Origin: Phoenix dactylifera
Lineage: Eukaryota > Streptophyta > Magnoliopsida > Arecales > Arecaceae
Assembly: GCF_009389715.1 (NCBI RefSeq)
Contig: NW_024067689.1
Span: 558,001 to 622,000 of the forward strand
Length of the DNA stretch: 64,000 bases
Direction of reading: 5' to 3'
A model generated the notes under the pieces. It searched no databases. It was not told the DNA's origin and saw only the letters and a list, made by a program, of their open reading frames with translations. Below, piece after piece: positions 905-62,218 of the stretch. The position numbers and the translations under genes were made by a program. The stretch's first letter is position 1; every line of letters begins with the position of its first letter.

Positions 905-2614
905 TTCTTCCAATGGCGGAGGGCGTCCTGACAATCCGGTTCGGGTCAGGGAGGAGCGGGCGAAGGCAATGGCAGTGGCCCCTTGGCTGGTGGGGGGCCA
1001 GCTGATGTCGATGGAGGACTGGCGGCCTGATTTTGTTCCGGGCATCCACTCGGTTAGCCGGACGGTTGTCTGGGTTAGGCTACCGGGGCTGCCGCTGGAA
1101 TACTGGGACGATGCATCCATCCTGGAGATGGTGGCGGCGGCGGGTAGGCCACTAGTGCTCGATGCCAGTGTCAAGTGAGAGGCGGAGGGCCGGCTATGCC
1201 CGAGCCAAGGTTGAGATCGACGCCAGCCTCCCTCTGGTTCCTGGCACGCTAGTCCAATGGGGGAAGAATAGGTTCTGGCAGGCCTTCGTTTACGAAGAAC
1301 CTGCCGAGCCTTTGCTACCTCTGCTGCCCGCACCGGTCATCAGGCGGGGGAGTGCCGATTCTGCCGAGGCGAAGGGAGATTGATCCCGGTGGTTAATGAA
1401 GATACTGGCGGTCCTTCGTCGTCCACGAAGGGAAACTTACCCGGGGGGAGCAAGCCGAGAGTCTTCGGCCCATGGATGACCTCTTCTAAGGTTTCCGGCA
1501 CAGCGAGGAGGCGGTGGGGCCTAGGGTTCCGGTGAGGCCGAAGGGGACGGCGACTCCCCGCACCGTGCCGACTCGGGACCGGTTCATTACCGACTCGGGC
1601 CCGTGTCCAGCCAAGAGAGGGCGAGCGAGCCTCAGTCATCGCCGGACTCTGAGGGCTGGCGGAAGCCTAAGAAGGTCGCTCGGCGCGTCTCGCCGGCGAA
1701 GGGAGCGGAAGGCGTCGAACCGTGTTGGGCGGCGGCGGCGACACTGATGCAGCGGTCCGAGTCGACACCGAGTCTAACTCGGCCAGGGAACGGTCCAAGG
1801 CCAAGTGGGCCCGGTCCGGACCGGGGTTTGTGATCAGGGGCCTGGGCTGGGCCCTCTCAATCTGAAGAATGGACCCAGCCCAATGAAAAGGGCCAGAAGC
1901 CCTTCAAAGCGGCGGGGGGCCCTCGGGCCGGAGCGTGGTCTGGCTCGAGACCACTCGGCCCCCCCTGTGCCCGGGTGCTTTGTGCCGGATGCTCGTGTGC
2001 CGGCGGATGGGGCGGCGAACAAGAACGGTGACCGGCGGTGCTTCAGGAGTCAGAGCGCGTCTCCGGCGGTCGCGGAAGGCCTGCGAGGTGGGAGGTCTGT
2101 CGGCCGGGGCGGCAAGGGTGGCTGTAACCGGGAACGACCTTCTGCGGATCCAGTTTCTCGACGGGGGATGGCGGTGTGCGGTGGAGAGGGGGGTCTGCCT
2201 CCGGTGGTGCCAGGCGGGGTGGATGCTCGGGCGGTGGACGAGCTCGGGCGAGGTGGTCTCCCGCCAGCGGAGATCGGGTCATCTCCCAGTTCGGTCTGCG
2301 GAGGAACCAGGAATGGTGAATGGACCGAGACTGTGCGGGATGAGATGTTGATTACTACCAGAGACTGCTCACTTGGGAAGAAGACCCTGGGTGTGGTGTC
2401 TATAGGGGGAACGGCAGAGAAGCCCAGGGAGATGGAGGTTCAGAGTGAGCTTGTGAGCACCGGGCATCCACGTGAAACGGCACATGAAGCCTTGGTACAT
2501 AAGTTGAAGGTGGTGCTTGAGATGGCCGGGCCGGAAGAGGGTGCGGCGTGTGGTAAGGAGGGAGGGCTGCAAGACCCCGAAGGGGTGGCCATGCATCAAA
2601 ATTCCCAAGTGTAG
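905..2614 (+). pseudogene. LINE ORF1 (gag-like), broken
   Basis: The frame at 969-1178 reads as the DUF4283 core of plant LINE ORF1 proteins, with VVWVRLPGLPLEYWDD as the hallmark. After a frameshift, 1196-1310 continues the family with a segment ending FWQAFVYEE. A further shift gives a corrupted CCHC knuckle (CYLCCPHR, near 1312-1340) where the family has a normal Cys-Cys-His-Cys motif. From about 1500 to 2614 the reading is Gly/Pro/Arg-rich and shows no domain. In the intact family this protein binds the LINE RNA. Here at least two frameshifts rule out a working product. Confidence 0.75.
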
Positions 2615-2616
2615 TT

Positions 2617-5600
2617 ATGAAGGTTCTTCTTTGGAACTGTCGGGGAGCGGGGAAGCCTTCCTTTCGGCCGGCCTTCCGAAGGTTAGTGAGTTTGCATGAC
2701 CCAGATGTTTGTGTTTTGCTTGAGACCCGACTGTCGGGATCCAGTTTGGAACGAGCTAGGCGTGCCATTCCGCGATCATGGGGGACATATGCGGTGGACT
2801 CTCGGGGCCTCTCAGGGGGCATCATGGTGTTATGGAGGCTGGGGGGTGTTGGTATTGATGTCTTCCACAAGTGCAACCAACACGTGATCCTGGTTATTTC
2901 TGAGGGGGCCGGGCCTCCGTGGGTCATTTTAGCCACATATGCCAGTACAAATTATCGGGAGAGGAGACTCTTGTGGGAGGAGGCCACCAACATCATTCAG
3001 CTTGGCCACCTGTGATGATGGCAGGGGACTTCAATTGCATTGACAGCCCGGAGGACAAGAGAGGGGGTATGGTCTTCTCCAACAACATTGAGGTCAGAGA
3101 GTTCCAGGACTTTATACAGTCCAATGGGCTGGCTGATCTTGGTTTCACTGGCCCGCGCTTCACTTGGTGCAACAACAGGCTGGGGATGGCACGTGTTTGG
3201 GAGCGGATTGACCGAGTGTACGCGACGCCCGGATGGCTTCAGAGGTTTCCGGATTTCTTGGTGCGCCACCTGCCCAGGATTGCTTCTGACCATTGCCCAG
3301 TATTGGTGAGTACCTCTCATACCTTTTCCGTTCATTGTCCTTTTCGCTTTGAGAAATTATGGCTGTCTTACCCACGGTCGTGGGAGGTGGTGAGAGAGGC
3401 GTAGCAGATGCCGGTTAGGGGGATGTGATGTATAGGGTTACCCGGAAACTTGAGCTAACCAGACGCCGTTTGCAAAGGTGGAATAAGGAGGAGGTGGGGA
3501 ATATCTTCAGGAGGGTGGAGGAGACAGAGGCATCCATCACTAGGCTACAGGCACTTGAGGACAGAGGGGTGGTCTTTCAGAGGTGGATCAGGGGGAGCTC
3601 AGGGGCTACTGGCTAGACACACTTCCCTTTTGAGGCAGCAGGAGGTGTTTTGGAGGCAAAAGTCCAGGATTCAGTGGATTAGGGAGGGGGATCGGAATAC
3701 CAGTTTCTTTCACCAGTCGACCATCATCAGGAGACATCGGAACTGGATTGGCCGGATTAGGGACAGCAGTGGGCGGGTGTCTGAGGATCAGGAGACAGTC
3801 AGGAGGATCTTGGTGCAGTTTTTCGGGACAGATGGACCGAGTCAGGAGGCACATATGGAGGAGCTTGCGGACCGGCACCAGGGAGGCAGGTATCAGTGGA
3901 GGAGAACGCTGCTTTGGTCAGTCCAGTGTCCGGGGATGAGGTACATGCGGCCCTTTGGTCTTTGGGCGAGGACAGAGCCCCGGGCCAGATGGTTTCCCCC
4001 CTGTCTTTTTCAGGAGTACTGGCACATAGTTAGACAGGAGGTGACGCGGCAGTCCAGCAGTTTTTTGTGTCGACAGAGATGCCCGTGGAGTGGAGGAGGA
4101 CCTTCATTACACTGATTCCGAAGAGACAGGACCCTATTGAGCCGTGCCACTATAGACCGATCAGCTTGTGCACCACCCTGTATAAGGTGGTGGCGAGGGT
4201 ACTAGTCCAGAGGATGAGGGGTATCCTACCCAGACTCATTTGCCCTGAGCAGGGGGCTTTTGTTGGGGGGCGTTCCATTCGGATAACGTCCTCATTGCTC
4301 ATGAGTTCATGGCTGACCTCCAGAAAGCGCCTAAGTGCAGGTGCTTAATGGGAGTCAAACTTGATATGGAGCGGGCATACGACAGGATGAGATGGGAGTT
4401 TGTGCAGCGATGCCTGGAGGGGTTTGGATTTCACCCGCAGTGGGTCAGATGGGTGCTCGGTTGCATACTGTCCCCGTCCTTTGCCTTATTGTTTAATGGC
4501 TCACCATCATGTTTCTTCGAGTCGTCAGTAGGATTGAGACAGGGCTGCCTTTGTCACCACTTCTGTTCATTCTATGTGCAGATTCTTTGTCCCGTGCACT
4601 CAGACTGGCTGTCCATGAGCAGGAGTTGGAGGTCTATGGCCCAGGGGCCGGGACGGCCAGGGTTTCGCATCTACTATTTGCTGATGATTGCATACTGTTA
4701 GCCCGCGCGACGAGCAGATCAGCCCGGCCATTAGTCGGATCTTGGGGGCATACTGTGGTGTGTCGGGGCAGCTGGTTAATCTGACCAAGTCTGCCATTTT
4801 CTTTAGCCCGAAGACTGACCATGGGGCGAGGCAGTCGATTATGAGTCTTCTAGGATTGGAGAGCAGGTGGGGACCCTTACATACCTCGGGGTGCCTATTA
4901 CGGGACGTCGGCTACGACGGAGGGAGTGTACATCCATGGAGCTGAGCATCACCACCGTTTGGAGGTTGGCAGGCGGTGCACTATCGATGATGGGCCGAGT
5001 CACCTTGGTACGTCAGTGTTGAGCTCTATCCCCATTATTTGCTCTCCAATACCCTGGTCCCTCTCGCTGTGATCCGGGGATTGGAGAGGATGTTTCGCAC
5101 TTTTATCTGGGACGGCGGGGAGGCAGAGACGGTGTTCACCTGGTGGCTTGGGAGTCTATTTGCCAGCCGACCGACAGGGGAGGACTTGGTATTCATTCAC
5201 TGGTCGAGCGGAGGGAGTTACTGGCGACCAGATTGGCAGCCAGGTTTCTTCTAGAGCCTGAGGGCCTTTGGGGCTCACTACTGAGGGCGAAGTATGGGGA
5301 TCCTGCCCCCCACTACGCCCTACGTACTGGACGTGGAGCTTCTTTTATTTGGCGAGAGATCTGTGCTCGCGCCCCGGGAGTGTTGCCAGAGATCAGGTGG
5401 GAGATTGGGGATGGGCGGTCGATCAGCATTTTGGAGGACAGATGGCTGGCTGAGGCAGCTTTGCACGGGTGGCCCAATGAGATTGACCATGGTTGGATGG
5501 AGGGACGTAGAGTGTGTGCCTTATTTGCCCCGGGGGAGCGGAGGTGGACACGAGTCTTGTTCGACAGGTTTTCGGGGAGCACCTTGCTGAGCGTGTCCTA

Positions 5601-6714
5601 GCTCTGCCGATCCCGGAGGGGGAGGCAGTGGATAGGAGGGTATGGAGCAGGACAGGTAGGACGACTGTGAGAGTTCGGGACCTTTTAGCGATTGGTAGAG
5701 GGCCCCCTGTGAGACAGATGGACTGCGGCTGGATTTGGAGGATGCATATTCACCCCCGAGTGGCCTTGTTCCTGTGGAAGGTGGCTTGGGGGTGTTTACC
5801 TACTACTGGGGTCTTGGCGAGACGGGGAGTGAGGGTCCCGGCCGGATGTGGAGCTTGTCAGCGACAGAGGAGACCATCTATCATGTCCTGTTTGGGTGCC
5901 CTAGAGCTAGTCAGATATGGAGACATGCTTCAGCTCAGCCCGATCAGAGGCAGCTGTGGGCGACCGTTGAGGATTCCTTCGTCATTTGGAGGCTTCGGTC
6001 CGGGGGTCTGTATGCGTGGAGAGGGGACTCGTGATGCCTACCCTGGCCTATCTTCGTTGGCTGGGGAGGAATACATGGGTCTTCGATGGTGAGAGCCTCC
6101 ATCCGAGGCTGGTGGCGGACCGAGCTCTACGGCTTGCGGCGGAGATCATCGGCGCTAGTGAGGCCTACACCTACTGGTTGGCTAGGGACATCTGGGGGCC
6201 CCCATTCTGCTCTGCAGCGTCCAGGACGATACTTGTATCCTGGGTGCCCCCACCCCCTGGCTTTCTCAAGGTGAACTTCGATGGCAGTGTATCAGTGGAT
6301 GGGAGCTGTGGAGGTGTGGGATTTATTATCAGGGATCATGATGCCAGACTTGTGGCGGCAGGTGGACGCAGGATTTTTGACTTATCAGTGGCGACTGGCA
6401 GAGCTTCAGGCGGCCTGGGGAGGGTGTCTCCTATGCGAGGCGGGTACTTGGTGAGGGTCACATCCTTCTCGAGGGGGACTCGCCACGGGATTGCGTGGAT
6501 CCGGGAAGGGGGAACTCAGTCGAGGACCGGCCGCTGCTTCACGATATCCGTAGAGCGTTGGGGGAGAACTGTCTCCTACCAAGCCTCGCACGTATATCGG
6601 GAGGCAAACGGTGCGGCTGACTGGGTTGCTTCTTTCGCGCTCATCACTCGGGAGATTTTCTTTGGTAGGCCACGAGGCTGTGCCTGCGTCTTTGCGCAGT
6701 ATATTGTTTTCTGA
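2617..6714 (+). pseudogene. LINE ORF2 (EN-RT-RNase H), broken
   Basis: The start at 2617 reads MKVLLWNCRGAG, the usual opening of the plant L1 endonuclease. In pieces spread over all three frames one finds the GDFN motif (about 3026), the SDHCPV motif (about 3288), RT blocks containing LDMERAYDRMRW (about 4360) and the catalytic FADD box (4677-4688). After these come a zf-RVT region with WIWRMHIHPRVALFLWK (about 5727) and an RNase H segment with FLKVNFDGSV (about 6262) and a terminal EANGAADWVASF (about 6601). The intact protein nicks target DNA and reverse-transcribes the LINE RNA. I count at least ten frame changes, so this copy is dead. ORF2 starts 2 bases after the ORF1 stop, the tight spacing normal for these elements. 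Confidence 0.88.
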
Positions 6715-8410: not shown

Positions 8411-9566
8411 AAGGTTCCGTTTGGAGGCCCTGCTCATAGTAGAGTTTTTGAAAGTAGAGCTTTCTAAAATAAAGCTTTTATAAAAAACTGTTTACTGTTT
8501 GGTAACTATATTTTTTAAAGTGTTGTGGCACTTTAAGATTTGCTGAGAAAGTACTTTTGGTATGACAAAATGATCATAAATGATATTGCATAGTATTATA
8601 CAACAAAACATAATAAAATATAATATGTATTAATATATAAATATATAATATAATATAATATTACTATAATATAATATAATATTATTATAATATAATAATA
8701 TAATATTGTATACTATAGTATAATAATTTAATATATAATTATAATATTATTAACATACATATCAATGTATTATGATATCTAATATAATGTTATATTTATA
8801 ATATAATACAATAACAAAGGTATAACATATTATAATTATTAGCATAAATTAATTTCTCATAATATAACAAAATATTAATTTATTTAACATAACATATTAA
8901 TGTATTATGATATAATGTAATATAAATTATTATTATAGTATAATATAATGATAAAGATATAAAATATTATAATTATTGTGTAAATTAATTTTCCACCGTC
9001 CTGCAGATTTTTAAAAATAAAGAGATATTTTGTATAATTATTATATTTTATCATAGGTATTTTGGTAAAAAGATAGCTTTCTGACGGGATCTAAAAGTAC
9101 TTTTTTCTAAAGCTCCAAAATGGAGCTTCTTCCAAAAAGCTATTTTTATCTTTCTAGAAAAGCTAAAACAGCTTTCCAAAATTTTTACCAAATACCTCTA
9201 TTTTATCTAAAAGTACTTTTGAAGGGTCAGAAAGTGCCACAACAATATATTAATAATATTATATCGTATTATATTACAGTAATATTATACTATATTATAT
9301 ATTTATGTATTAATATATGTTATATTTTATTATGCTCTATTGTATAATATTATGTAATGTTCTTTATGGTAATCTTGTCATACAAAATTATTTTCTCAGT
9401 TTGTTTACCAAACACATGTTAAAAACTTAAAGTGCCACAGCACTTTAGAAATTTAGTTACCAAATCGCAAATAGATTTTTGTAAAAAACTCTACTTCAGA
9501 AAGCTCTATTTCAACAGCTTTACTTTTAAAAGTTCTATTGGCCACAGCTTTTCCAAACAAGGCCTT
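8411..9566. mobile_element. Long-TIR foldback element, about 1.16 kb
   Basis: The first and last 200 bp or so are inverted copies of each other. The left end begins AAGGTTCCGTTTGG; the right end, read in reverse complement, begins AAGGCCTTGTTTGG. Both then run through matching blocks AGAGCTTTCT, GTTTGGTAAC (left) or ATTTGGTAAC (right), and GTGGCACTTTAAG. The interior is AT-rich without a coding frame. Flanking bases are TAA on the left and TTA on the right, suggestive of PIF/Harbinger but not an exact duplication, so the superfamily is open. Confidence 0.75.
9056..9222 (+). repeat. Foldback core repeat, copy A
   Basis: This segment in the middle of the foldback element recurs in reverse complement at 44643-44806. 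It begins with GGTATTTTGGTAAAAAGATAGC and contains its own small inverted repeat around AAGCTCCAAAATGGAGCTTC. It may be a second element nested in the first, or the shared core of the family. Confidence 0.65.
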
Positions 9567-10738
9567 AGTATGAACAGCCATCCGCCATGCAAAGCCCAAC
9601 GCACCAAGGATTTCTCTAAATTTTTTTTTATATGAATGTGATGGTGTACAGGCGGACTCTTTTTGAGAGGTAATAAATGTTACAATATCTAATGCAGGCA
9701 GGATATGAGAAGCATTTACATTATTTTATTGGAAAATGTTTACATACTTTTAAAAATAATAAAGCAGGTATTTACATGAAGCATTATCGAAAATGGTTTA
9801 TGTCACGTATCATTTTTTGCTATGTGGTCCACTGCACGATGATACCGATTCCACGATCATCTATGAGCTTTTTTTTTTTTTTTGGGTTTCTTCCAAGAAG
9901 GTCCACCATCCTGGCTATAGAGTGGTCACAGCATTTGGAGTCTGGCTCAATGCATAAACCTCAGTCCTTCCCGGAACCTGTCAAGAAACTGAGCTGTGAA
10001 ATGTGCATGAGAGAGTGTGTGTGTGTGGAAAACTTGCACTGGATGTTTAATTAGAGAGAGAAGGAGAGAGAGAGTTGAAAAATGCATTAAATGCTTGATT
10101 AAAAAATAGAAGTAACATAAAAGGAGGGGCTACCCAAATACTTTAGGACTTATGAAGCAGGCGAGTGAAAGATACGGGAAGGAGGTCATCGAAGATATGA
10201 AAGGGGCTGGAGCCAACCATATGGAGTCATCCTCATGTTAGACAAGAAAAATATATAAAAAAAGAGAGAAAAATATCATTTAATAAGGGCAAAAACTGTC
10301 AACTAATGAATTTATTAACATTTTTTTTATCATAGAGTTGATACTTGAACTCATGCGTTCTACCATTAAAAGCAGTCATTATCTCTGGACCATGTACAGT
10401 GATGGCAGCATATTCTAATAAAAGAAAGAATATTAAACTGTCATTAAATTGCGTCATGATTTCACACACAACCACATGCAGATATACACAGACATGCAAA
10501 AAGAAAGGTCAATGCATAACATAAAAGAAACGTAAATAGTTAATATATATTTCTAAACGCATCACCGGAACAACGTACCTGATGAAAGAATAACATGAAA
10601 TACTTATATTTTAATGAAAGTTATCATGAATTCTTTTCTTTTTTTTTGGTCAAACCGTGGTTTCATTTCCAACAACTCAAGTTTGTATCCTTAGCTATTC
10701 ATACGTCATCTCTCTATTGGGGAACACCGAACACTAGT
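9567..10738. other. Intergenic, no gene seen
   Basis: AT-rich sequence with homopolymer runs (T run near 9870, T run near 10636). The frames at 9677-10054 and 10299-10499 show no domain, family resemblance or splice context and are taken as chance. Confidence 0.5.
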
Positions 10739-10981
10739 TAACGGAGCTCCCTTCAAGCAAGAAAAGCCATCACCTTCTTCTCAGCAACACCCAGAGGAAA
10801 AGTGAGCCTCATTAATCCTCAGAGAAGAGGAGTAGTTGACGGGGCTCCCTGTCGTCCTCTTCCATTCCCAACCTGGCCGGGAGAAATGAGCTCCAGTAAT
10901 CCTCTCTCGCACATAAAGGGGAGGGGAGAGGAGAAATACATATATAAGAGAGAGAGAGATCTATGCGAGGAAGAGCAGTTG

Positions 10982-11063
10982 ACGGGGCTCCCTTCACTCC
11001 AAGCAGGGAAGGAAGTGGCCCGTCATCCTCTTCCATTTCCCACCTGGGGAGAAGTGAGCCCCG
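10982..11063. other. Hairpin unit 3 of the array
   Basis: The plus-strand 21-mer 10982-11002 matches the reverse complement of miR319 at 18 of 21 positions. Read on the minus strand it starts TTGGAGTGAAGGGAGC and lies on the 3' arm, which is where mature miR319/miR159 sits in its precursors. Units at 11136-11217 and 11286-11367 have the same 21-mer and the same fold. The unit at 11439-11518 lacks one G of arm 1. Confidence 0.75.
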
Positions 11064-11563
11064 GTAATCCTCTCTCGCACATAGAGGGGGGAGAGAGGAG
11101 AGATAGAGAGAGATTTATGCAACGAAGAGTAGTTGACGGGGCTCCCTTCACTCCAAGCAGGGAAGGAAGTGGCCCGTCATCCTCTTCCATTTCCCACCTG
11201 GGGAGAAGTGAGCCCCGGTAATCCTCTCTCGCACATAGAGGGGGAAGAGGAGAGATAGAGAGATTTATGCAACGAAGAGTAGTTGACGGGGCTCCCTTCA
11301 CTCCAAGCAGGGAAGGAAGTGGCCCGTCATCCTCTTCCATTTCCCACCTGGGGAGAAGTGAGCCCCGGTAATCCTCTCTCGCACATAGAGGGGGAGAGAG
11401 GAGAGATAGAGAGAGATTTATGCGACGAAGAGTAGTTGACGGGCTCCCTTCACTCCAAGCAGGGAAGGAAGTGGCCTATCATCCTCTTTCATTCCCCACA
11501 TGGGAGAAGTGAGCCCCGGTAATCCTCTCCCGCACATTGAAAGCAAGGAGAGAGTAAGAGACG

Positions 11564-11564
<1 letters not shown>

Positions 11565-11597
<33 letters not shown>
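11565..11597. repeat. (GA)n microsatellite in the array
   Basis: An uninterrupted GA run expands the linker between the sixth and seventh units, where arm 1 of the seventh unit is lost. Confidence 0.9.
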
Positions 11598-11600
<3 letters not shown>

Positions 11601-11749
11601 ATGCGAGAAGAGAAGTGGCCTGTTTCAACCCCTTCTATTCACCATCTTGGGAGAAGCGAGCTCCGGTTATCCTCTCTTGCACGTAGAGGTGGGGAGGGGA
11701 GAGAGAGAGAGAGAGAGCAAGAGATCTGTGAGAGGAAGGGCAGTACTTG

Positions 11750-11830
11750 ATGGAGCTTCCTTCAGTCCAAGCAGCAAAGGCAGAAGCCCATCATTCTCTC
11801 TCTCCCCCGCATGGAAAAGAAGCAAGCCCC
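11750..11830. other. Hairpin unit 8, closest to miR319
   Basis: The 21-mer 11750-11770, read on the minus strand, begins TTGGACTGAAGGAAGC and agrees with miR319 at 19 of 21 positions; the differences are at miRNA positions 13 and 20. Arm 2 (about 11809-11830, CATGGAAAAGAAGCAAGCCC) pairs imperfectly. On the plus strand the same bases would be a near-perfect miR319 target site with one G:U pair and one mismatch outside the seed. Confidence 0.7.
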
Positions 11831-12123
11831 AGTAATCCTCTCTCACACAGAGAAGTAGGGTGGAGAGAGAGATGTGTGTTCTATGCGAGGAAGAGTAGTT
11901 GATGCAGCTTCCTTCACTCCAAGCAGGAAGGAAGAAGCCTGCCATCCTCTTCTCTTCCCCATCTGGAGCAAAGCAAGCCCACGCAGAAAGGGACGGCGAA
12001 GAGAGAGAGTTCTATGCGAGGAAGAGTATTTGATGGAGCTTTTTTTTACTCGAAGCATGAGAGGAAGAGAGCCCTCATCTCCTATCCCCACCAGAGGGAG
12101 AGAAGTAAGCCGGCCCCAGTAAT

Positions 12124-15100
12124 CGTCTCTCCCACGAGAGAGAGGGAGGGAGAGAGAGATAAACAAAACGTACTCGCTCGCCAAGGGCGAGGATTGGCAT
12201 GGGAGAGGAGAGGGCAATGGGACGGTCCATATGTAGCCAGAGACGAGCAACTGAAAGCTGGACGCAATGAATTAAAGGATATCTTAGGTAATAATTAAAA
12301 AAAAAAAGATATGCTCGAAGATTTCTCTTTTCGTGGCAAGTGGTCGATTTTGGAAGGTGCGGAGGCCCCAGCGGTACCGGGAATTGGAATCAAATATTTC
12401 CATTCTAAAAGGCAAGCCACCCAGGCCTTTGCCCAGTACCAGCAGTTATGGATTCACGCACCCTTCCACTTTTTCACTGAATATTTATGTCTTTGTCAAC
12501 GAAATCTAGTGTAGATCTCGATATTGGATACACTGGGATATATAGTACGATAGTCAAAATTTTAGTCCCTCTAAGATGCTCTCATCTTGTGCGGCCTATA
12601 TTTGTTATAAAGGAAATTTTGAATTTTGATGAAAATAAAATATTTTAATTAATAAGAATTAGATGAAATTAAAATCCTAGAGAAATGGTGGGAGTCTTGT
12701 GATTATCCATCAAATAACTTGGGTTGCCTTGTTCAATTTTTGCATGTTATATGGCACAACTTGAAAATGAGACTCCAATGCTAGCCATAGGAAATACATT
12801 TAAGAAGCAACATCGAAGGAATTATGATGTTAGACATAAAAGTTCGGTAATGTTATTAAAGTTGTCACAGACTTACAAGAATACCTAGTACTTGCTTACC
12901 CGATAGTTGAATAATGATGCTGTATATTTCTAAAGCTTAATAATTGACAAGACGTGGAATTCTAATAAAAGGGAAAAAAGTATTGTTTAGTTATGATCCT
13001 GACAATTCAGATTCTTGAAAAAGACAAACTAGGGATAAAGTCTAATTTTTAGCTTTTTTTGGGCATAAAGTGGCTAATACACGTAGAATCCTAATAATAG
13101 ATGAAAAGAATTTGACATTCATAATTTAGAACATCAAACTGGCATTTTGATCTAAAGTTTAGTATGACATTGCACGTGAAATTTTAATAGTAGAATAAAA
13201 AGTTTGTGCTCATATTTTATGATTAATTGTACTTGATGCCAGATATTCAATAATGATGATAAATTCATCAATTGTAAATTTAAATTAACTTTTACTCGGT
13301 CTATATTTGTAAAGTTGCATGGAATTCTATTTAGAAGTTAAAAAGATTGGAGAAGCTAGATCTAGGCACTAGATTTACAAACATTTTATGTTTAGCCTTT
13401 AATGTAAACATTTTATTTGGGGAAACTTGCTCTGATTGCCATTTTATTTAACATCCATGTTTCATGTGTAAATCATGCAGAATTGTATACAGGAATCTAT
13501 AATACTCCTAACAGAAAATAATTGCATTTTGGTCATACGTAGCAAAAAATCTGAACTAAAATTCAATAAAAATTTTATAAACTTTTTATTATATATACAA
13601 ATAATTAATTAGCTTAGACAAAAAAAAAATATACATATGGCTTAATACTAGCTGCACCTATAGCGATCTCAATTATAATTATTAACACTCAATCTTAATT
13701 AGTTATTCACCCATTCTCCAAGCTTCACTGGATATATATTGAACCAATTCACATCTAATGGGCTTTTCCCCCTACAAAAACTGATGAGTTACTATTGTCT
13801 CCATTATATCGTTCTTAATAAGAGAATTAAATTGTTGATGGTAATTAATTTTAACTTAATTATAATTAAAATTTTTGGCAAGAGTTAAATTATCAGATAT
13901 TAATAGTTTCCAAAAGTTCTCCACATGCATGGCATGAGGACATTTACTAGTGGATATAATAATTTATACAAATAGATCAAAAAATATAACAAGGGTTAAA
14001 ATTCCAATCATCAATTATTGAACGATTAATTGTTAAATAGCTATCAATACCGAGTGTTAAGTTTATCGAAATACATTTGGTAATAGCCTATGCGCAAACT
14101 AATTAATAGAGATTAAGGTATGTCGTCTTGGTACCCGACTACATGCAAGTACCATCTTATTACAATATTGGTATGTCCGGTATAGAGCCGGTTCGACATA
14201 TCAAGTATCGGTATGCCTCTCATATAATGTATCCATGCCAAATAAGTACAGTATGGTGCTCCATATTGATCCATTCGGTAAAGTATCATATAAGATTAAC
14301 ATTTGCTATAGAAGGAAACACCAAAAGAAAATAAAAACACCTTAAACACCATACCTTCCTCGAGAACACAAGACCCTGGATATGACTTGGCCGTTGTCCA
14401 TGGCCGAAAACCTATTCAATTAGTGGATGTTGACAATACTTACAGCACACCCTTAGGTTTAAAATTAAATTATATCCAGAGGTTTAATTTTTTCAATGGA
14501 GAATTGGAGGTTTAATGGATCCATGTTGAGGTAATGACAGACTCCTGCTTGCGTGCCATAAATGGGGTGAAATTCGGACGTGGAATCGCCTTAGAACCAG
14601 TGTTTTCCCGTATCTGGGCCGTCTGCAGGTCCAGTTACAGCATCTTAGGTGTATTTGGGCTGTTTGGATTGCAGCAGCTAATCGAGCTGCAGGCTGCAGC
14701 AAGTCCAAATGCTAGATTGGGCTAAGATAATGCAGCCCAAGTTGCGTCCAAGTGGTTACGGGCCGACTCGCCGAGAAACGAGAGAGCCCGTGGGTCCCAC
14801 GATCTGACTCCCCCCCCCCGCTGGGCCGCCCTCCCTCGACCGCATTCTCCTCCTTTCCCAATGTCGCGGGCCATCGTCAGCTCGACGCCGTGACATTAGC
14901 CTCCCAATTGCGCCATTGGCAACCACCGCACGTTCTCCCCCATCCTCAAGGCGTCTTTTCGCTTTCTTGACATCCAAGAAGACCGACAGATCCATATGCC
15001 TATATGTTTCTTTTACCAACTCTACTGTCTGCAACATGTGCGTGAGAAGTATTCGATTAAATGTCCAAGAAGGACGTAGATGCCATGATTAATTGGTATG

Positions 15101-28823: not shown

Positions 28824-29296
28824 GGCATTCTTCCAAGCTGAGATCCATGGGCTTACTCGGTGGTTTGGAAGTGCTCGAGGGAATCACCTCCTTACCTTTC
28901 CAGTCCCTCTTCCTTAGATCTTATTCCCCGTAAAAGCATGGTTGCTTTGTTTTTGTTAATGAAAGAGATTCCTTGTTTCTCTTCTGCTTGGTCTCATCCC
29001 TCCTGAGGCCTCAGGTCTTTTCCCTCCTCTCCTTGCTTCCTTCCCTTCCTCTCATATGATCATTGGTCTGAAGCTAATAGAACAAGATTGCTTAGTTTCT
29101 TTGTTGATTCTATAATTTTTTAGAGGCTAAAAAATCTTGTTTAGAAGATAAAAGACATGGTTTTCTGGTTGGCAGATCTTCCCTTGCATGCGTGGTTTCT
29201 TTTTCTGAATATAGATGGTTTAGATTTTATCTTCCCGTTTTGAACATTTTTTTGCTGATTTCTTTGGTTCATGATGTGAGATGGGTTAGGCTAAAG

Positions 29297-29317
29297 AGAG
29301 CTTCCTTCAGTCCACTC
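29297..29317 (+). ncRNA. miR319 star strand
   Basis: This is the 5'-arm partner of the mature strand. One mismatch lies at the A against G position inside the duplex, and 3' overhangs are consistent with Dicer-like processing. Confidence 0.85.
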
Positions 29318-29436
29318 ATGGGTGGTTGTAGGGTTGAATTAGCTGCCGACTCATTCATCCAACTACCAAGAAGGTGTTTGCTTGGTAATCGAGTGAATGA
29401 TGCGGGAGATAAAATCAGATCCTATGCTGCCTATGC

Positions 29437-29457
29437 TTGGACTGAAGGGAGCTCCCT
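29437..29457 (+). ncRNA. Mature miR319
   Basis: This is the 21-nt guide strand on the 3' arm of the hairpin, beginning with U as usual for AGO1 loading. Confidence 0.93.
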
Positions 29458-29469
29458 TCTCTACAACCC

Positions 29470-40121: not shown

Positions 40122-43100
40122 TCAATGTAACTGCAACTGCTTGTTCCTTTTAGTGATAGATCCATTTGAGGATCCTTTTGAAGATTTCTGACGAGCATGC
40201 CTTCCCTCCAATCTTGCTTCAAGTAGTTTTGCCTTCAATGTGCACATTTGTGCCATCTGCGGTAGTTTGGACGAAAACTCCGATATCTCGAGGTCAGCAA
40301 ATACATGTTGATGATTCCACTGCTGCACCGGACTAGATAGACTGCAGAAATCACCTAAAGAATCATCCCCACCAACTGGTGCAAAATGACCTTGCAATAA
40401 AAAGTGATCGCAAGACTTCCTGATATTCCTATGAGGATTAAACTTTGTGCCTCTAGGAAAATCTGCCTGGTTTTTCATTAAGTTACCGGTTAGCTGATCA
40501 GATTCATGCTGTTTATCCAACTTCTTTTTTAAGTTTTGATCACCATCTTGAGCTTGACAGATTTCAGAATTCTGGGCTGCAGCAGGTTTGCCTTGATTTA
40601 CTTCTATGCATCTGGAGTCAGCATCAGTATGAGCAGGCAAGTGAATCTCATTTAAGCTATCATCAACATGCACTGGGTTTCCATTACATAGCCTGGTCCT
40701 ATCAGTTTCTTCCACAAATTGTACTTGCATACCAGATACATCATGATCCTTGTCCTTCTCAGAATATTTCATATTCTCATTTGTAGAACTAGATTTCTTT
40801 TTTTCTTCTGATTTATCTATTCCATTTTCACCTTGCAATTTAATTTGGTCATAAATTGGACCGCCGTTGATGTTCATGTTCAGCTCAAAGCACAGCAAGT
40901 CACTGGCCACAGAATCATCATCTTCAGCATCTTGAGGTGCGCTGGTGGCTCCATTTAAGTGGACAGATTCTAGGGAATGGCGCCGCACACTACCATTTTT
41001 CCTGGCCTCTGTACGATATGCTATACCATTCTTCGAGCTATTGGATCTTCTAGTCTCAAGAAAAGATTCTATTTCACCACTCAACCTCTCTATTATCATG
41101 TTTTTTTCTGCCAGATTCCCCTGTGCTTCTGCAGTCTTCATCTGCAATCGCTCATCCAGCCATGCTTCAGAAACATGAAGTAGCAACCAGTCAAATCTAT
41201 TATCAGTATCTCGTGCTGATTTTTGTTTCAATTCTTGTATCTCTTGTTCATAATTTCCTATTCCCTTTGCAAACTCATCGCAGAGGTCCTCTAGCAAACC
41301 ACGTCTTTTTCTTTCTCTTTCCAGCTCTTTCAAAGCTTTAGAAAATGCCGACTTGACTTCATTTATTTCTTTACCCAATTTGCGGTGTAAACTCTCCGAG
41401 AGTCTCCTTATCTTCTTCTCATTTTCAAGCTCTTCCTTTATGGACTGGACTGCTGCTTTAATCCTTTCTTGTTCCCTGTTCTTCCTAATTAGTTTGTCCT
41501 CTGCAACTTGCTTCACCAGATCATCCATTTCATGGCGACAAGCTTGCTGTTCTTGCATCAGTCCCTGAATACGCGATTGCGCCTGACCTAACTCCACCTT
41601 GAGTGCTTTGACCAATGATACACTAGATGCATGCTGTTCCTCCAGGCTCCAGATCCGATTCAATACTTTCACTAATTCTGTCGATGCCTTAAGGTTATAT
41701 CCCGACTCTCCAATCCTTCCTCTGCAATTTGTGGAACTGCTAGGAGTCATGACCTGGTTCCATGAGAGAACCTGCAAGTGCATGACAAAATCAGGTAAGG
41801 AAAGATTTGAAGATATTCTGCAAGAGGACCCAACTAGTAAAATCCTTGTACAAGTTTTTGGGTGATATATTTTGATTCAGTCAAGGGCATAACGATTACA
41901 ACACAAGAAGTTTGAAGAGCTAAATATAAAGTAGGTTACCTCCATTGAGCTACTATAACTTGCACTTGTAGGGGACACAGCTTGTAGATCGTGATTATTC
42001 GTTTCAATCAGCTTCTGGTGCTGAATCAATGAGGCCACAACATGTCTCCTTAAAGTGCCGGCACTCTGAAGCTGGTGAACATGCAAGATGTTAGTTAGCA
42101 GTAGAGGAAAACTCATCATTTTCAATTTTTATATGTATAACAGGTGGCAACAAGTTCAGCAAGGAAAAATCAGATGCATATAACATGGGGAACTTCAGGT
42201 ATAAACTATAAACGACAAACAGGGCAGAAGATGGTGAAGGAATTACAACAAATGGAGGACTGAAGCTGGAGTCTTGGAGAAACAGGGTTACAAAATTAAT
42301 TAGCGAGTTAGAATTCAGGCATTCTCTGATTATATCTGACATGATGCTATAAGAAAATAATGAAAAAGGGGTGAAAATATCCTGCAGTCAAGCATGGTTC
42401 TTATAGTCATGCTATAACAGAAAATTTTCTTGCTATGCCTCAATATCATCCAAGAAGAAAAAATAGTTAAAACAGTAAGCTTTCCATCATTCCACAACCA
42501 AGAATATATTTCCTCCTTGTCATTCTCTATCTATTTACTAAATTTGAACCATTTTGTAAACATCAAATATTGTTGCATGCCATCTATATGAAGAATTTTT
42601 TTTTTTTTTGAGGATGAAGAATAAAATTATATGGCAGACAATTCCTCCACTGCTATCAGAAGGCTGGGGATTGTAGGGGATGTACCCAAGGTGAAAGAAT
42701 ACGTTAATCATCTACTTTAGGTTTGTTATTCATGAAGTGCACAAAATTATTCATAGCCTGTAACTAGAATATCTTACATTAAACGAAAAAAAGAAATAGT
42801 TAGAAGCAGAAATAAAGAAAAATAGTTAGCTCGACATTTCAATCAACAAATTAAACAGAGAAAAATTGATGTCATCAAGTCCTCAGCAACACACATCAAG
42901 CATGTCAGAAGAGAATTTCCTCAACAAACAAACCAATTCCCACTCAGTAACCTAAATACCATATCATTTACCAGCAGCAAGTTAAACACATATAAATAAC
43001 CAGCCACCCTAATCAAAAGCATTTATTAATTAAAGAGGAACAAATATCCTCAGCACCAGAGCTAAGCTAGCTAGCAGAGAATTAGCTAGTTTTAAGCCTG

Positions 43101-50345: not shown

Positions 50346-50535
50346 TTTGGAGTTTCTTGGATCCAGGGACCTAGGCTTTGGGTTTTGGTTTTGAGTTACT
50401 ACCCCACTCCTCATCAATCTCCAAGTCGCTTCTTTGCTAATTTGGACTTTCTTGGATCCAGGGACCCAGGCTTTGGGTTTTGGTTCTGAGTTACTACCCA
50501 ACTCCTCATCAATCTCCAAGTCACTTCTTTGCTAA
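50346..50535 (+). repeat. Tandem duplication, 2 x 95 bp
   Basis: 50346-50440 is repeated head to tail as 50441-50535 with only a few substitutions (shared words TTCTTGGATCCAGGGAC and CTCATCAATCTCCAAGTC). There is no gap between the copies. Confidence 0.92.
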
Positions 50536-53444: not shown

Positions 53445-54653
53445 TCAGGAGGCCACTTCAAGCCTCGGTTCAAAGCAGAAACCAGTGAAAAGCTGAAGAG
53501 GAAATCTTTTTGTCACAGGGCACTTGACTGACCATTTCCATTGCTTCTGGCTCATGTCAAAAACAAGCAAGGCAGTAGCTCCATAGCTCTGTATGTATAT
53601 GAGATCACCAGTGCCACTGCTTGCAAAAACATCGTCAAACTCACCAAATCCTTGGAAAAATCTGTGCGGCATTCGGGCAACCTCTTGCCACCCATTCTTA
53701 TGAAGCTCCCAGATGCCTATCCCCTTGATGATGTCTGGCCTGTCGTATTTTGCAATCCCACCGACCATGACCAGCCTCTCTTTGAGGTTCATCAGCCGGC
53801 CACAGGTGAGGAAGCAAGGCACTGGTATAAAGGTGCGCATCAGAGAAGTGCGAGAAGATTGGGCCGAAAGATCATACATGATCAGACCATGGCGAAGGTC
53901 AGCAGTTCCTAAAACACCAGTAGAGTGAATCAAACAGTACAAAACTCCATTACAAATCACGCACTCATCACCTCCCCTCCATCCTGTCAAAACCTCCTTA
54001 ATGGATGTGACCCATGATCTACTCCCAGACTCATATATGTGAATGGAGAAGTCCCATTGAAGGAAATCATCTGGCACCTGCTTAGATTTTGCCACGACAA
54101 CAGTATAATCATGAGACTTCCTGTCCACAGATATAGCAACGGTACTATAGTCTGGGAATTTTGCACCTGGAGGTTCCAATAGCATCTTCCAGTCTTTTGT
54201 GATCGGGTTGAAAACAAAAATACGGCTCCTACTGTCATTGTCCATGGAGCAAACTAATCCGCAGGAGGAAGAGAGAAACCAGCTACTTCTCTCGATGCAA
54301 GGAAGATCAAAATTATACCACTTCCGAAGTATTGGGTCATAAGCATAACCAGCTGGAGACTCGCAATAGGTAAACATGTAGTACCATGGCTTCTGAGGCA
54401 ACTTGTTGGCCCATAGAAACCTCTTTGAATAGATGATGTCATACCATCTTTTGCATACAGATGCAGCTCTGATAATGCTTGCAATGGGCAAAAAGGACAG
54501 GATTTTCTCCAAGATATCATCCGGAAGAATGCTATCTAAAGAAACCAGTAATCCTTCGCCTTCATCATTGCCCTCAGAAACTGGTTCGATGTCAGCAACC
54601 TCACTTCCAGAGTGGCTAATAGAAAGAGACTCCCATGATGTCTCACCCTCCAT
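53445..54653 (-). CDS. HWS: F-box/kelch protein HAWAIIAN SKIRT orthologue
   Basis: A single coding exon of 402 residues. An acidic N-terminus precedes the F-box (about residues 40-80: ILPDDILEKILSFLPIASII), which binds SKP1 in an SCF ubiquitin ligase. The rest is a kelch/beta-propeller substrate domain with family signatures: PWYYMFTYCESPAGYAYDP, SSCGLVCSMDND, GWRGG, CGRLMNLKERLVMVGGI, MPHRFFQGFGEFDDVFASSG and the C-terminal RFPLQLFTGFCFEPRLE. Length and order agree with Arabidopsis HWS (At3g61590), which limits organ growth and fusion and affects microRNA activity. The start at 54653 is chosen because the upstream in-frame extension has no ATG and homologues begin ME.ETSW. The coding exon likely starts after an acceptor TTTCAG at 54694. 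Confidence 0.96.
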   Translation of the reverse strand: MEGETSWESLSISHSGSEVADIEPVSEGNDEGEGLLVSLDSILPDDILEKILSFLPIASIIRAASVCKRWYDIIYSKRFLWANKLPQKPWYYMFTYCESPAGYAYDPILRKWYNFDLPCIERSSWFLSSSCGLVCSMDNDSRSRIFVFNPITKDWKMLLEPPGAKFPDYSTVAISVDRKSHDYTVVVAKSKQVPDDFLQWDFSIHIYESGSRSWVTSIKEVLTGWRGGDECVICNGVLYCLIHSTGVLGTADLRHGLIMYDLSAQSSRTSLMRTFIPVPCFLTCGRLMNLKERLVMVGGIAKYDRPDIIKGIGIWELHKNGWQEVARMPHRFFQGFGEFDDVFASSGTGDLIYIQSYGATALLVFDMSQKQWKWSVKCPVTKRFPLQLFTGFCFEPRLEVAS

Positions 54654-56240
54654 GAGGATAACGATAGCATTCGACAAAGGCCAAAACAATAACCTGAAAG
54701 GATCATAAAAGAGATAGAAGAGTGGAGAGCAGAGAAATATAAACGATCAGCTTCAAAACTACATTCAAAGTTCCAAAAACTTGAATCCAATTCCAAGCAG
54801 AAACTATTCTTGGCCAGGGAAGAAGGGAAGGGACAAAAACAAAGGGAGAAAAAGAAAAAAGAAAACTTTTAACAAAAGAGCAAGCTAAAATTCATGGAAA
54901 ACAGAATTCTGTGCACCTTCAAGCATTTTATAGCTGACGTGGTAAAGATAAGTTCATCCGCACAAGGAAAACACAAGTATAAAGGTTTAAACGTTACAGC
55001 AGGAAATATAACTAAGATTATAAAAAAGGAGAACAAGCAAATCCTATCAAAATCTTTCACCTACTAGAAGGAAAGGGATTAAAAAAGGATGTAACAGAAC
55101 AGATAACATATCACCAAGCGTGCCATAATTTTCGTCAAAAAAAAAAGCATGCTATAATCTAATATTTAGACAAAAGGCATGATACGATAAAACCCAATCT
55201 TCCGATACTGAATCGGTTCACATAGAACAATATTGTAAAACAATCATAAAAGAATCGTCATTCCTAAGGCCGTTTCAAAACTGTTTTATGTGAGTAATCT
55301 CCATAAAAGAGAGAGCATTTACCTATCTCGAAAATTAAACCCTAGATTATGTTCTTCTCGAGCGTCTCAGCAAGAGAGATACCACTACATCACACAAACA
55401 AACCCCATGATCTCATCACATAATGTGCGAGTATTGTCGTCTCTATCCATCCCTAAACCTCAAGCACTAAAAAAAGAAGAAAATCGGAAAAAAATGACCT
55501 CAAGAAAAGGACATCGATCAAACAAGAACAGGGCCAAACTAAAACCAACAGCAAAAGAAAAAAGAAAATGCTTTCTTTCCCATACCTCAGCGGTAACAGA
55601 TAATAGAAAGAAAGGCGCACCAAAATCCGATCTTTTTGGTCCCTCTCATTCCAAGATCCCGCCTTTCTTTCATTCCAGGGATCATTCCACCCATTGCTAT
55701 CCAAAACTCGGGATTTCGCGGAGGAATGGCAGAGAGAGAACGTGGATAAGGGCTACAGAGGCCTCTTTTATCCGCTTCTCACAATCTGGCGAGCGAGATA
55801 GAAGGGTAAACAGGGGAAAGAATTCAGGCTTCGGCCGTATCTATCCTAAGCCTTTGGATTTGGCGGAAGGAAACGACGACGAAGGGGCCGAAGAGGAGGG
55901 GAGGGGACGCAGAAAGGCCACAAGATGCGGTCTTGCTTCGGGATCAAGATCGAGTGAGGCCGAGAAGACGCGAAGGATATAAGACAGATACAACAGTGGT
56001 TTCGGCTCCAGCAAGAAAACAAAACGACAGGCAGGGAATACCGACTGGCAAGGTGGTTTTCCTCGGAACTCTTTGTTATGGAAGAGGAGATGGGATTTGG
56101 GGAGAGAGAGAGAGAGGGGGAGGGAAAGGTGGTTTTCCTTCGGGTCCTTGTATTTTAGAAGAAGGGTTGGGGTTTGAGAGAGAGAAGGTGGGGAGAGAGG
56201 AGGCTATTGAGGGATGGGGTGGTCTTGTGGCCATGTAATA
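54654..56240 (-). promoter_or_regulatory. HWS 5'UTR with likely intron, and promoter
   Basis: A clean acceptor (CTTTCAG|GTTATTG, exon from 54693) lies 40 bp before the ATG, and a donor CTGAG|GTATGG ends a possible leader exon at 55586, giving an intron of about 890 bp. A CT-rich leader on the minus strand (GA-rich on plus at 56098-56190) and a TATATATA run at 56238-56258 are placed as a promoter would be. Intron positions are inferred from splice words only. Long plus-strand frames here (55290-55982) are opposite-strand shadows. Confidence 0.5.
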
Positions 56241-57793: not shown

Positions 57794-59318
57794 GAAAAAA
57801 TTACAAGAACACCTCCTCAATTTTGAGTCAATATCAAAGGCGCTCCTCGATTTTAAAAAGTTTCAAATAGATTCCTCAAGTTTCCTAATTGTTCCAAATT
57901 GGTCCTTCGATTCTCCGACCAGCAAACGATGTTAGTTTGCTATTTCAATTGATGGAAATACCCTCTTTCTATTTTAGCTTATTCCAACTTTAAAATCTGT
58001 CCACATAGTCACTTTGGATCTATCTAGAAGAATGAATATTCAGATCATGCATCGCATAGATCTGAAAGTAGTCCAAACTTCTTTGTTCATCTACCTACAA
58101 AGATCTCAAAGCACTATTCGCTTTGAGACCTGTGTAGGCAAACGAACATTTGAATCATCCACTAATTGCTTTGAGATCTAGGCAAATGAACGAACGTCTG
58201 AATCATCCACTGTGCAGATCTGTGCAGGTGAATGAATATTTGGATCATCCGTAGATACTTTGAGATGTATACAGATGGATGAATATTTGGATCATCTGTA
58301 GTTGCTTTGAGATATATGTAGGTGGATGAATATCTAAATCATCCATAGTTGCTTAGAGATCTATACAAGCGGATGAATATCTGGATCATCCATGGTTGCT
58401 TTAAGATATGTGCAGGCGGATGCACATCTAGATCATTTATGATTGCTTAGAGATTTGTGTAGATGGAAGATTGCTTTGAGATCTATGAAAAAGGATGAAT
58501 AATCTGGATCATCTATGCGGCCACTTTGAGATTTGTGCAGGCAAATTAATAATCTAGATCATCCATTAGTCGGTTTGAGATCTGTACAAGTGGATAGATG
58601 ACCCTGGTCAAGCACCGGTTGTTTTGAGATCTATGTAGGTGGATGAATATCTGGATCATTTATGGTTGCTTTGAGATATATGAAGGTGGATGAATATCTG
58701 GATGGTCCGTGGTTGTTTCGAGATCTATGCAGGTGGATGAATATTTGGATCGTCCGTAGTTGCTTTAAGATTTATGCTAACAGATGAATGTTCGGATCAT
58801 CCATGGTTGCTTTGAGATCTGTGCAGATTGATGAATAATCATGATCGTCTAATGATCGTTTTGAGATTTATGCAAAAGGATGAGTAATCTGGATCATCCA
58901 TGCTATCACTTTGAGATTTGTAAGGGAGGATGAATAATTTAGATCATCTACTAGTCACCTTGAGATCCATGTAGGTGGATAATCTTGATCCTGCATTGGT
59001 TGCTTTGAGATATATGCATATGGATTAATAAAAGAGTTTGGAGCACTTTGAGATTTATGTGATGGATGATCCTACGGTGGATATACACGAAGAAAGATGA
59101 GTCCTGACACCACTGTGCAATGGGATCCTTTGATGACACGAAGGGCGGTTCGATCATAATACAATGTTATATCACTATGTGATGGTCACGCAACGTCATT
59201 CTGTTAACAGAGATTAACAATAGGACTAGTTTAGAATAGTTTGCAAACTTAAGATTTTGTTTGAAATTTTTTAAAGTCATGACGGTATTTTCTGGATCGG
59301 CCTAGAATGTTTTCTTTC
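57794..59318. mobile_element. Mutator-like TIR element 1 with minisatellite
   Basis: The left end GAAAAAATTACAAGAACACC and the right end (reverse complement GAAAGAAAACATTC) start inverted repeats of well over 100 bp. The shared text includes AAAAAGTTTCAAA and GTTAGTTTGC-like words. A perfect 10-bp duplication TAAAATTTTA flanks it (57784-57793 and 59319-59328), in the 9-11-bp range of Mutator-like elements. The interrupted 240-bp repeat unit reads through when the element is removed. The interior is a minisatellite array, with no transposase frame. Confidence 0.82.
58030..59060 (-). repeat. Minisatellite inside element 1, about 47-bp unit
   Basis: About 20 diverged copies of a unit reading, on the plus strand, CTTTGAGATCTGTGCAGG, then GGATGAATATCTGGATCATCC. 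In reverse complement this is the ATCTCAAAG unit of the arrays at 61.3-62.0 and 62.4-63.4 kb. At 58095-58130 the array changes direction: GATCTCAAAGC followed at once by GCTTTGAGACC. Confidence 0.82.
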
Positions 59319-61192: not shown

Positions 61193-62178
61193 CAAAAAAA
61201 AAAAAAAAAAATTGTCATAGAGATATTTTCTCGACTTTAAAAAACTCTAAAAAAAGGTGTCACATAACCATCACATCACATGATAGTATAAAATTGTATT
61301 ATAACTAAAATATTCTTCATATTCATATTAGTTACTCGTGTGGTGACATCCTGACATAAATCTCAAAAGCATCTTAGTATTTGATCAATAATTAAGGATC
61401 ACCTATTGTATAGATCTTAAAGCATTCCATGCCTGCCTAGTTGTCAAAGTATACTTAGTACATGGCCCATAATTAAGCATCACCTACGGTACATATCTCA
61501 AAGTACTCCGAATACTTTCATTCATCTTTTCGAACAGATATCAAAGCACCTTTAGTATATGGCCTATAATTAAGAAGCACCCACCATACAAATTTCAAAA
61601 CACTCCTAACCCTTTCATTCATTTACTTGCATAGTTCTCAAACTACCCTTAGTATCTATAGCGAATGATCACCCACCGAACAAATCTCAAAGCACTCAGA
61701 ACCTCTTCACTCATCCACCTGCACAGATCTCAAAGCACACATAGTATGTGACCCATAGTTAAGGATCACCCATTGTGCAAATTTCAAAGCACACCAAACC
61801 CCTTCATTTGACCGCTTGCATAGATCTCAAAACATCCTTAGTATATGGCCCATAGTTAAGGATCATCCACCACACTAATCTTAAAGTACTATGTACTTCA
61901 TCCATCTGCATATATCTCAAGGCATACTTGTATAGACTTATTTCACATATCTCAAATCACTCCAAACCACTTTGTTCATCTGTACTCTGAAGAGGGTGAC
62001 GGTATTTTGGTCATATGGAATGGTAGACTAACATCGTTCTCCAGTCAAGAAACCATAGGCCCAGCTTGAAACACTTTAGAAACTTGAAGGATCCAATGAA
62101 ATTTTATAAAGTCAAGAGGGTGTCTCTAGGATAGGCTCTAAGTTGAGGAGGTGTTTCTATAATTCTTTTTTTGAGAAA
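61193..62178. mobile_element. Mutator-like TIR element 2 with minisatellite
   Basis: The right end read in reverse complement (AATTATAGAAACACCTCCTCAACTT) matches the left end of element 1 over more than 150 bp, including ACGATGTTAG. The left end (AATTGTCATAGAGATATTTTC) is more eroded and merges with an A run, so the target duplication cannot be read. The interior is a third array of the ATCTCAAAGCA family. Confidence 0.65.
61340..61980 (+). repeat. Minisatellite inside element 2, about 100-bp higher-order unit
   Basis: Two half-units alternate. Each begins with a CAGATCTCAAAGCA-like word; one continues with CCAAACCCTTCATTCATC-like text, the other with TTAGTATATGGCCCATA and TTAAGGATCACCCA. 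The pair recurs about six times. Confidence 0.7.
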
Positions 62179-62218
62179 AAAAAACCTTTAGCATACTACC
62201 TCAGCAATAAAACAAATA

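Follow-up and report, generated by a model that had tools for sequence, protein, structure and literature searches.

Clusters of homologous microRNA genes are known from several plants, among them rice MIR395 and MIR156b-c, Medicago MIR166, and members of MIR169 and MIR399, and the cited parts of two reports suggest that such clusters stem from duplications of an ancestral hairpin (PMC2812943; PMC2607281). In maize, a cluster of six miR159 paralogues has been reported, according to the portion of the source used here (PMC2773440). In the section of a processing study available to us, loop-to-base cutting is described as guided by a terminal loop or bulge that lies 15-17 bp above the miRNA duplex, and miR319a is treated as a sequential loop-to-base precursor (PMC8688358). 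A tandem minisatellite of MIR319-like hairpins was not seen among the titles and abstracts listed from the open-licence literature. The word "tandem" does not occur in the main text, as retrieved, of a paper on MIR159/319 evolution (PMC3118147), and the best 12 of 16 places in the retrieved text of an Azolla paper hold nothing on hairpin arrays (PMC8386757). What is new at the locus described here is that, near an intact MIR319 gene, a tandem minisatellite has formed from a MIR-like hairpin, homologous MIR clusters as such being already known.

The window, i.e., the whole stretch of 64,000 nucleotides of Phoenix dactylifera DNA that was analysed, contains ten head-to-tail repeat units, U1 to U10 (Table 1). 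The initial annotation had described about ten repeats of about 150 bp, and TRF agrees (10947-11537, period 150, 3.9 copies, 95% matches); the limits then given, 10739 to 12123, located the array correctly and slightly understated its extent. Measured from landmark to landmark, U2-U10 are 131-178 bp long and U1 is shorter, at about 98 bp; in every unit a hairpin portion is joined to a purine-rich linker. Over the full unit, linker included, U3-U5 share 97-99% identity, whereas other pairs among the nine units compared reach 58-90%, which indicates that the middle of the array was amplified recently and that the outer units are older. A protein-coding repeat was considered and rejected, given that one plus-strand frame of the array matched no Pfam family and that one frame per strand had no protein relatives at E ≤ 1. 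In collections not expected to hold plants, the degenerate core pattern had no exact match in viral contigs and the array had no copies in plasmids.

Table 1. Units of the tandem array and the neighboring MIR319 precursor (positions in the window; z, fold energy of the single unit on the minus strand relative to shuffles).
Feature	Position	Strand	Match to miR319	Rfam MIR159 (bits)	z	Remarks
Tandem array	10725..12170 (end approximate)	- (miR-like strand)				Ten head-to-tail units, mostly ~150 bp
U1	10725..10822	-	16/21		+0.8	Degenerate, core deletion, without hairpin
U2	10823..10914	-			+1.1	Deletion of 3′ upper stem and 5′ portion of miR-like arm, without hairpin
U3 hairpin	10971..11073	-	18/21, 10982-11002	33.2	-3.8	
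U4 hairpin	11125..11227	-	18/21, 11136-11156	33.9	-4.2	
U5 hairpin	11275..11377	-	18/21, 11286-11306	33.9	-4.2	
U6 hairpin	11427..11528	-	16/21	24.5	-2.7	1-base deletion in miR-like core
U7 partial unit	11600..11684	-			+1.1	Without miR-like arm
U8 hairpin, weak	11739..11841	-	19/21, 11750-11770	24.5	-1.7	Best miR319 match
U9 hairpin	11891..11990	-	17/21, 11902-11922	28.2	-3.4	Folded as 11891-11985
U10	12017..12137	-			+0.4	Degenerate core with A/T run, without hairpin
Intact MIR319 precursor	29286..29468	+	21/21, 29437-29457	150		Rfam MIR159 E 2.1e-33

On the minus strand, U3-U5 carry the 21-mer TTGGAGTGAAGGGAGCCCCGT and U8 carries TTGGACTGAAGGAAGCTCCAT. The claims that these match miR319 at 18 of 21 (U3-U5) and 19 of 21 (U8) positions, and that the miR-like strand is the 3′ arm of a minus-strand hairpin, were both borne out (Table 1). 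The trinucleotide TGC stands directly 5′ of the core in U3, U4, U6, U8, U9, and U10, as it does before TTGGA in the local MIR319. A miR159/319-like sequence on the 3′ arm, the arrangement of the MIR159/319 family, is found in U3-U6, U8, and U9, while the core is broken or absent in U1, U2, U7, and U10. The Rfam MIR159 model (RF00638, gathering score 74) matches the six folding units on the minus strand at 24.5-33.9 bits. In the 1651 bases searched, the E values run from 3.2e-5 to 0.008, and at the scale of the whole window the best unit corresponds to E 0.0012; a seventh match, across U1-U2, is at noise level (15.5 bits, E 1.6). Plus-strand matches to the same model were obtained for U4 and U5 (29.6 bits), U6 (21.4), and U10 (18.6). 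With a best score of 33.9 against 74, the array units fall outside the Rfam membership rule, and with the MIR319 model (RF03483, gathering score 54) U3-U5 reach 15.4 bits (E 9).

The ten units were folded singly on both strands. A hairpin of ~80 nt forms on the minus strand in U3-U6, U8, and U9, although the fold of U8 is weak (equalled by 12 of 200 shuffles); none was found there by single-unit folding in U1, U2, U7, or U10, and the 80-85-nt hairpin originally ascribed to each repeat therefore applies to six of the ten. The fold of U4 has 35 pairs, 31 in a core of ~81 nt and 4 outside it, which exceeds the earlier count of about 26 made on U3. The plus strand folds as well in U3-U6 (z -4.5 to -2.0), less so in U9 (-1.8) and not in U8 (+0.25), a pattern to be expected of a near-palindrome some of whose minus-strand pairs are G-U. 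By the criterion of the plant miRNA community, a miRNA/miRNA* duplex contains at most about five mismatches. Five of the seven units scored, which were all but U1, U2, and U7, stay within this limit (counts of unpaired bases, miR side/opposite side: U3-U5, 4/3; U8, 5/4; U9, 2/4), while U6 (7/2) and U10 (13/8) exceed it. Six related hairpins thus lie on one strand within 10971-11990, as expected of a homologous MIR cluster.

In all six folding units the 5′ end of the miR-like strand and the terminal loop, of 8-10 nt, lie 15-16 nt apart, with 12-14 of these nucleotides paired, compared with 56 nt in the local MIR319, and the array hairpins accordingly lack the long fold-back with extended upper stem of the MIR159/319 family. 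Because this spacing is close to the published 15-17, the array hairpins look like short loop-to-base precursors. The spacing may simply have been inherited from one ancestral unit, and for that reason the six units do not amount to six independent observations.

The intact MIR319 precursor, which the initial annotation overlooked and whose stem is long (-83.9 kcal/mol), lies ~17 kb from the array, with its miR-like strand on the opposite DNA strand; the MIR319 locus also matches the Rfam MIR159 model on its own opposite strand (95.2 bits). It is possibly the source of the array, or a relative of it. When U1-U4 and U6-U10 were aligned to it, the minus strands of U3, U4, U6, U8, and U9 scored 43-54, above their own maxima (36-43) in 200 shuffles, and the plus strands of the same units scored 28-34. 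U1 scored 37, with a shuffle maximum of 38, and U2, U7, and U10 remained within their shuffles. In five units compared, no homology above shuffles was found outside TGC and the core: upstream of these, 85-316 of 500 shuffles reached the score when the whole upstream part was used, and 71-263 of 500 did so when the comparison was limited to the 5′ arm. Hence, the initially proposed likeness to MIR319/MIR159 precursors holds for the core, the TGC, the 3′ arm, and the sub-threshold Rfam MIR159 matches, and stops short of any similarity beyond TGC and core.

Elsewhere in the window, a minus-strand gene for an F-box protein (53445-54746) encodes a product identical at 375 of 402 positions (93%) to an Elaeis guineensis protein and 86% identical to one of Phoenix dactylifera; judged by this one protein, the host groups with the palms, nearest to Elaeis. 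Two further minisatellites, at 58144-59030 and 61454-63354, have units of ~43-47 bp plus longer multiples; their copies are mutually inverted around 59.1-61.4 kb (best 25 of 111 inverted pairs), and they are perhaps the ends of a fold-back element. A broken LINE-like element occupies 1778-6714 on the plus strand, with an endonuclease-like match just below the Pfam cut-off and an RVT_3 (RNase H-type) match above it, and pieces resembling a LINE-like element were seen by eye on the minus strand at ~45.1-46.0 and 48.4-48.9 kb. An open frame of 584 aa on the minus strand (40122-41876) appears coiled-coil-like by eye and matched no Pfam family at E ≤ 0.001. A 95-bp unit is repeated twice in tandem at 50346-50535 (94% matches), and an AT-rich simple-repeat stretch at 8610-8991 includes a 137-bp unit in 1.8 copies.

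Several tests bear on whether the array has been maintained as RNA. Among five regions compared between eight units, the miR arm is the most identical (0.79 vs. 0.66-0.73); in U4, U6, U8, U9, and U10, where the hairpin region is complete, it reaches 0.80 and the outer 3′ flank 0.78. The conservation of the miR columns was reached by 121 of 5000 random sets of 21 columns, and 10 of 97 windows along the alignment were more conserved than the miR window, the best of them beginning three columns further on. Paired cells amounted to 81.7%, against 46-61% when the structure was slid, a difference favored by the use of the U4 structure, and the pairing percentage of the columns was reached by 55 of 500 shuffles. 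Covariation was at shuffle level (0.147 vs. 0.146, reached by 250 of 500), so we no longer take it to prove that the hairpin is under selection, despite double changes kept as pairs at two lower-stem pairs (columns 15/99 and 22/92); in the RNAalifold consensus no more than 12 lower-stem pairs remained, and its covariation term was +0.59. Two potential signs of a transcribed strand were dropped as well. G-U exceeds A-C on the minus strand by 25 to 11 in U1, U8, U9, and U10 (binomial p 0.029), but this asymmetry was reached by 448 of 2000 within-unit reshuffles and is attributable to composition. The minus-strand fold energy is below that of the plus strand in nine of ten units (the exception being U2), but shuffled minus strands likewise have the lower mean energy, in ten of ten. 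Given that the miR arm is only slightly more conserved and that covariation and wobble are at control level, the evidence for a maintained RNA, and for selection on the array, is weak.

Explanations of the array differ both in the origin that they propose and in the function that they allow, and the probabilities we attach to them overlap because these are separate questions. Regarding origin, G+C makes up 52.7% of the array but 40.2% of the window, the array's plus strand is purine-rich (57.8% A+G), and a GC-rich palindrome might have come to resemble miR319 by chance. We rejected this extremely improbable explanation because the number of miR319 matches with at most three mismatches in the array, four, was reached by none of 2000 permuted queries, and because the Rfam MIR159 model matches all six folding units at E 0.008 or better in 1651 bases. 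A more substantial alternative, which we nevertheless judge unlikely, is that the unit arose by inverted duplication of a GAMYB-type miR159/319 target site instead of from a MIR gene, so that its minus strand would be antisense to GAMYB and its hairpin a proto-miRNA. The core of U3 (which is also that of U4 and U5), U8, and U9 agrees at 18 of 20 positions with the complement of what we take to be the GAMYB site, compared with 18, 19, and 17 of 21 for miR319. Where miR319 departs from this presumed site, at two core positions, four of five units entered and three of six, respectively, side with GAMYB, and the plus strand of U3-U5 reads ...GGGCTCCCTTCACTCCAAG... As to pairing penalties, the miR-like strand of U3-U5 incurs 1.5 on the presumed GAMYB site, against 3 for miR319 itself, and 5.0 on the TCP site as we assume it to be, against 3.5. 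On the other side stand the TGC flank shared with MIR319, the lack of any protein match at E ≤ 1 for the two translated array frames, and the dependence of these comparisons on an assumed GAMYB site, the letters of which are absent from the main text of a rice miR159 paper (PMC7937009). The core may belong either to miR319 or to the miR159/319 group at large, as in U3, U8, and U9 it resembles both miR319 and the presumed GAMYB complement, and as the Rfam MIR319 model gives U3-U5 only 15.4 bits. The unit derives most simply from a MIR159/319 hairpin, and we infer common descent of the array units with MIR159/319; the confinement of the similarity to TGC and a core that also resembles a GAMYB complement leaves an inverted target-site copy as the less likely alternative.

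Regarding function, the plus strand could be the working one, as a multi-site RNA that serves either as a miR319 sponge or as a cleavage target of the miR319 made at the gene 17 kb away. Only six miR319 sites with a penalty of at most 4.5 occur on the two strands of the window, four of them on the array plus strand and two at the MIR319 gene (on the 5′ arm and antisense to the 3′ arm), and 100 permuted queries gave none. Any miR-like strand brings such sites with it as its complement, so those in the array are not separate evidence; furthermore, penalties rise from 2.0 in U8 and 3.5 in U3-U5 to 5.0 in U6 and U9, 7.5 in U1, and 12 in U10, and the sites of U3-U6 are buried in stable plus-strand stems. 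Known target mimics have a central bulge in the miRNA site that prevents cleavage, whereas the four best array sites pair through the middle in ungapped alignment. We therefore consider a working plus strand very unlikely. More credible, though we would sooner bet against it, is a non-functional minisatellite, in which a miR319-like palindrome was captured once, multiplied by unequal crossing-over, and now gives rise to dispersed 24-nt siRNAs at most. The loss of the hairpin from four of ten units fits such neutrality, as do the negative covariation and wobble controls and the near-identity of U3-U5 across the linker as well as the hairpin; it is harder to square with the miR arm being the most identical region and with a loop spacing kept in six of six folding units, though for the latter common descent alone could suffice.

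The reading we favor, with moderate confidence, is that a short MIR159/319-type fold-back was amplified in tandem to a minisatellite, making the array a proto- or pseudo-MIR cluster. The neutral minisatellite overlaps the "pseudo" side of this reading, and differs from it in allowing no processed product, either at present or in the recent past. The ancestor would have been a short fold-back whose 3′ arm was of the miR159/319 type; in the simplest case this was a shortened MIR159/319 hairpin and a relative of the intact MIR319 that lies 17 kb from the array. Tandem amplification, probably by unequal exchange, would then have produced the minisatellite, with a minus strand that reads as a row of compact miR319-like hairpins. 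If a minus-strand transcript is made, loop-to-base dicing that starts about 15-16 nt below the terminal loop is predicted to release 21-nt miR319-like RNAs from U3-U5, U8, and U9, and these RNAs could act on the GAMYB/TCP target set. A regulatory role of the predicted hairpins is possible, and the restraint of the initial annotation on this point was justified. The boldest form of the favored reading, and one part of it, is a working and retargeted polycistronic array, in which a shortened upper stem changed sequential into short loop-to-base dicing, the recently amplified U3-U5 moved from TCP towards GAMYB preference, and the whole constitutes a dosage-variable microRNA satellite; we regard this form as quite unlikely.

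An intact MIR319 and an amplified, partly decayed, compact relative are thus found within one 64-kb stretch, and as a consequence a single locus offers a test both of how satellite amplification lets microRNA hairpins arise or disappear and of how a long precursor geometry gives way to a short one. Should the hairpins be processed, the dosage of an RNA directed at the TCP/GAMYB genes of a palm would depend on copy number.

With MIR319/MIR159 precursors (RF00638) the array shares a miR strand on the 3′ arm, a paired 5′ arm, and, as in the local MIR319, TGC before TTGGA; it differs from them in its tandem arrangement, its sub-threshold Rfam scores, and an upper stem without detectable similarity. 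Compared with the local MIR319, in which the Rfam match spans 183 nt and the loop-to-miR distance is 56 nt, the array core is compact, with ~81 nt and 15-16 nt, respectively. Short loop-to-base precursors of the ath-MIR162a type have a similar loop-to-duplex distance, about 15-17 in the section of the source available to us, while processing of the array is a prediction and MIR319 itself is cut by sequential loop-to-base dicing (PMC8688358). Homologous MIR clusters, as the cited parts of the reports describe them, resemble the array in having several related hairpins in a row; the array, known from DNA alone, is distinguished by its series of about ten head-to-tail units, most of them ~150 bp long, of which four no longer fold (PMC2812943; PMC2607281). 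The maize miR159 cluster, in the portion of the source used here, likewise represents a local expansion within the MIR159/319 superfamily, and there the expansion consists of separate genes (PMC2773440).
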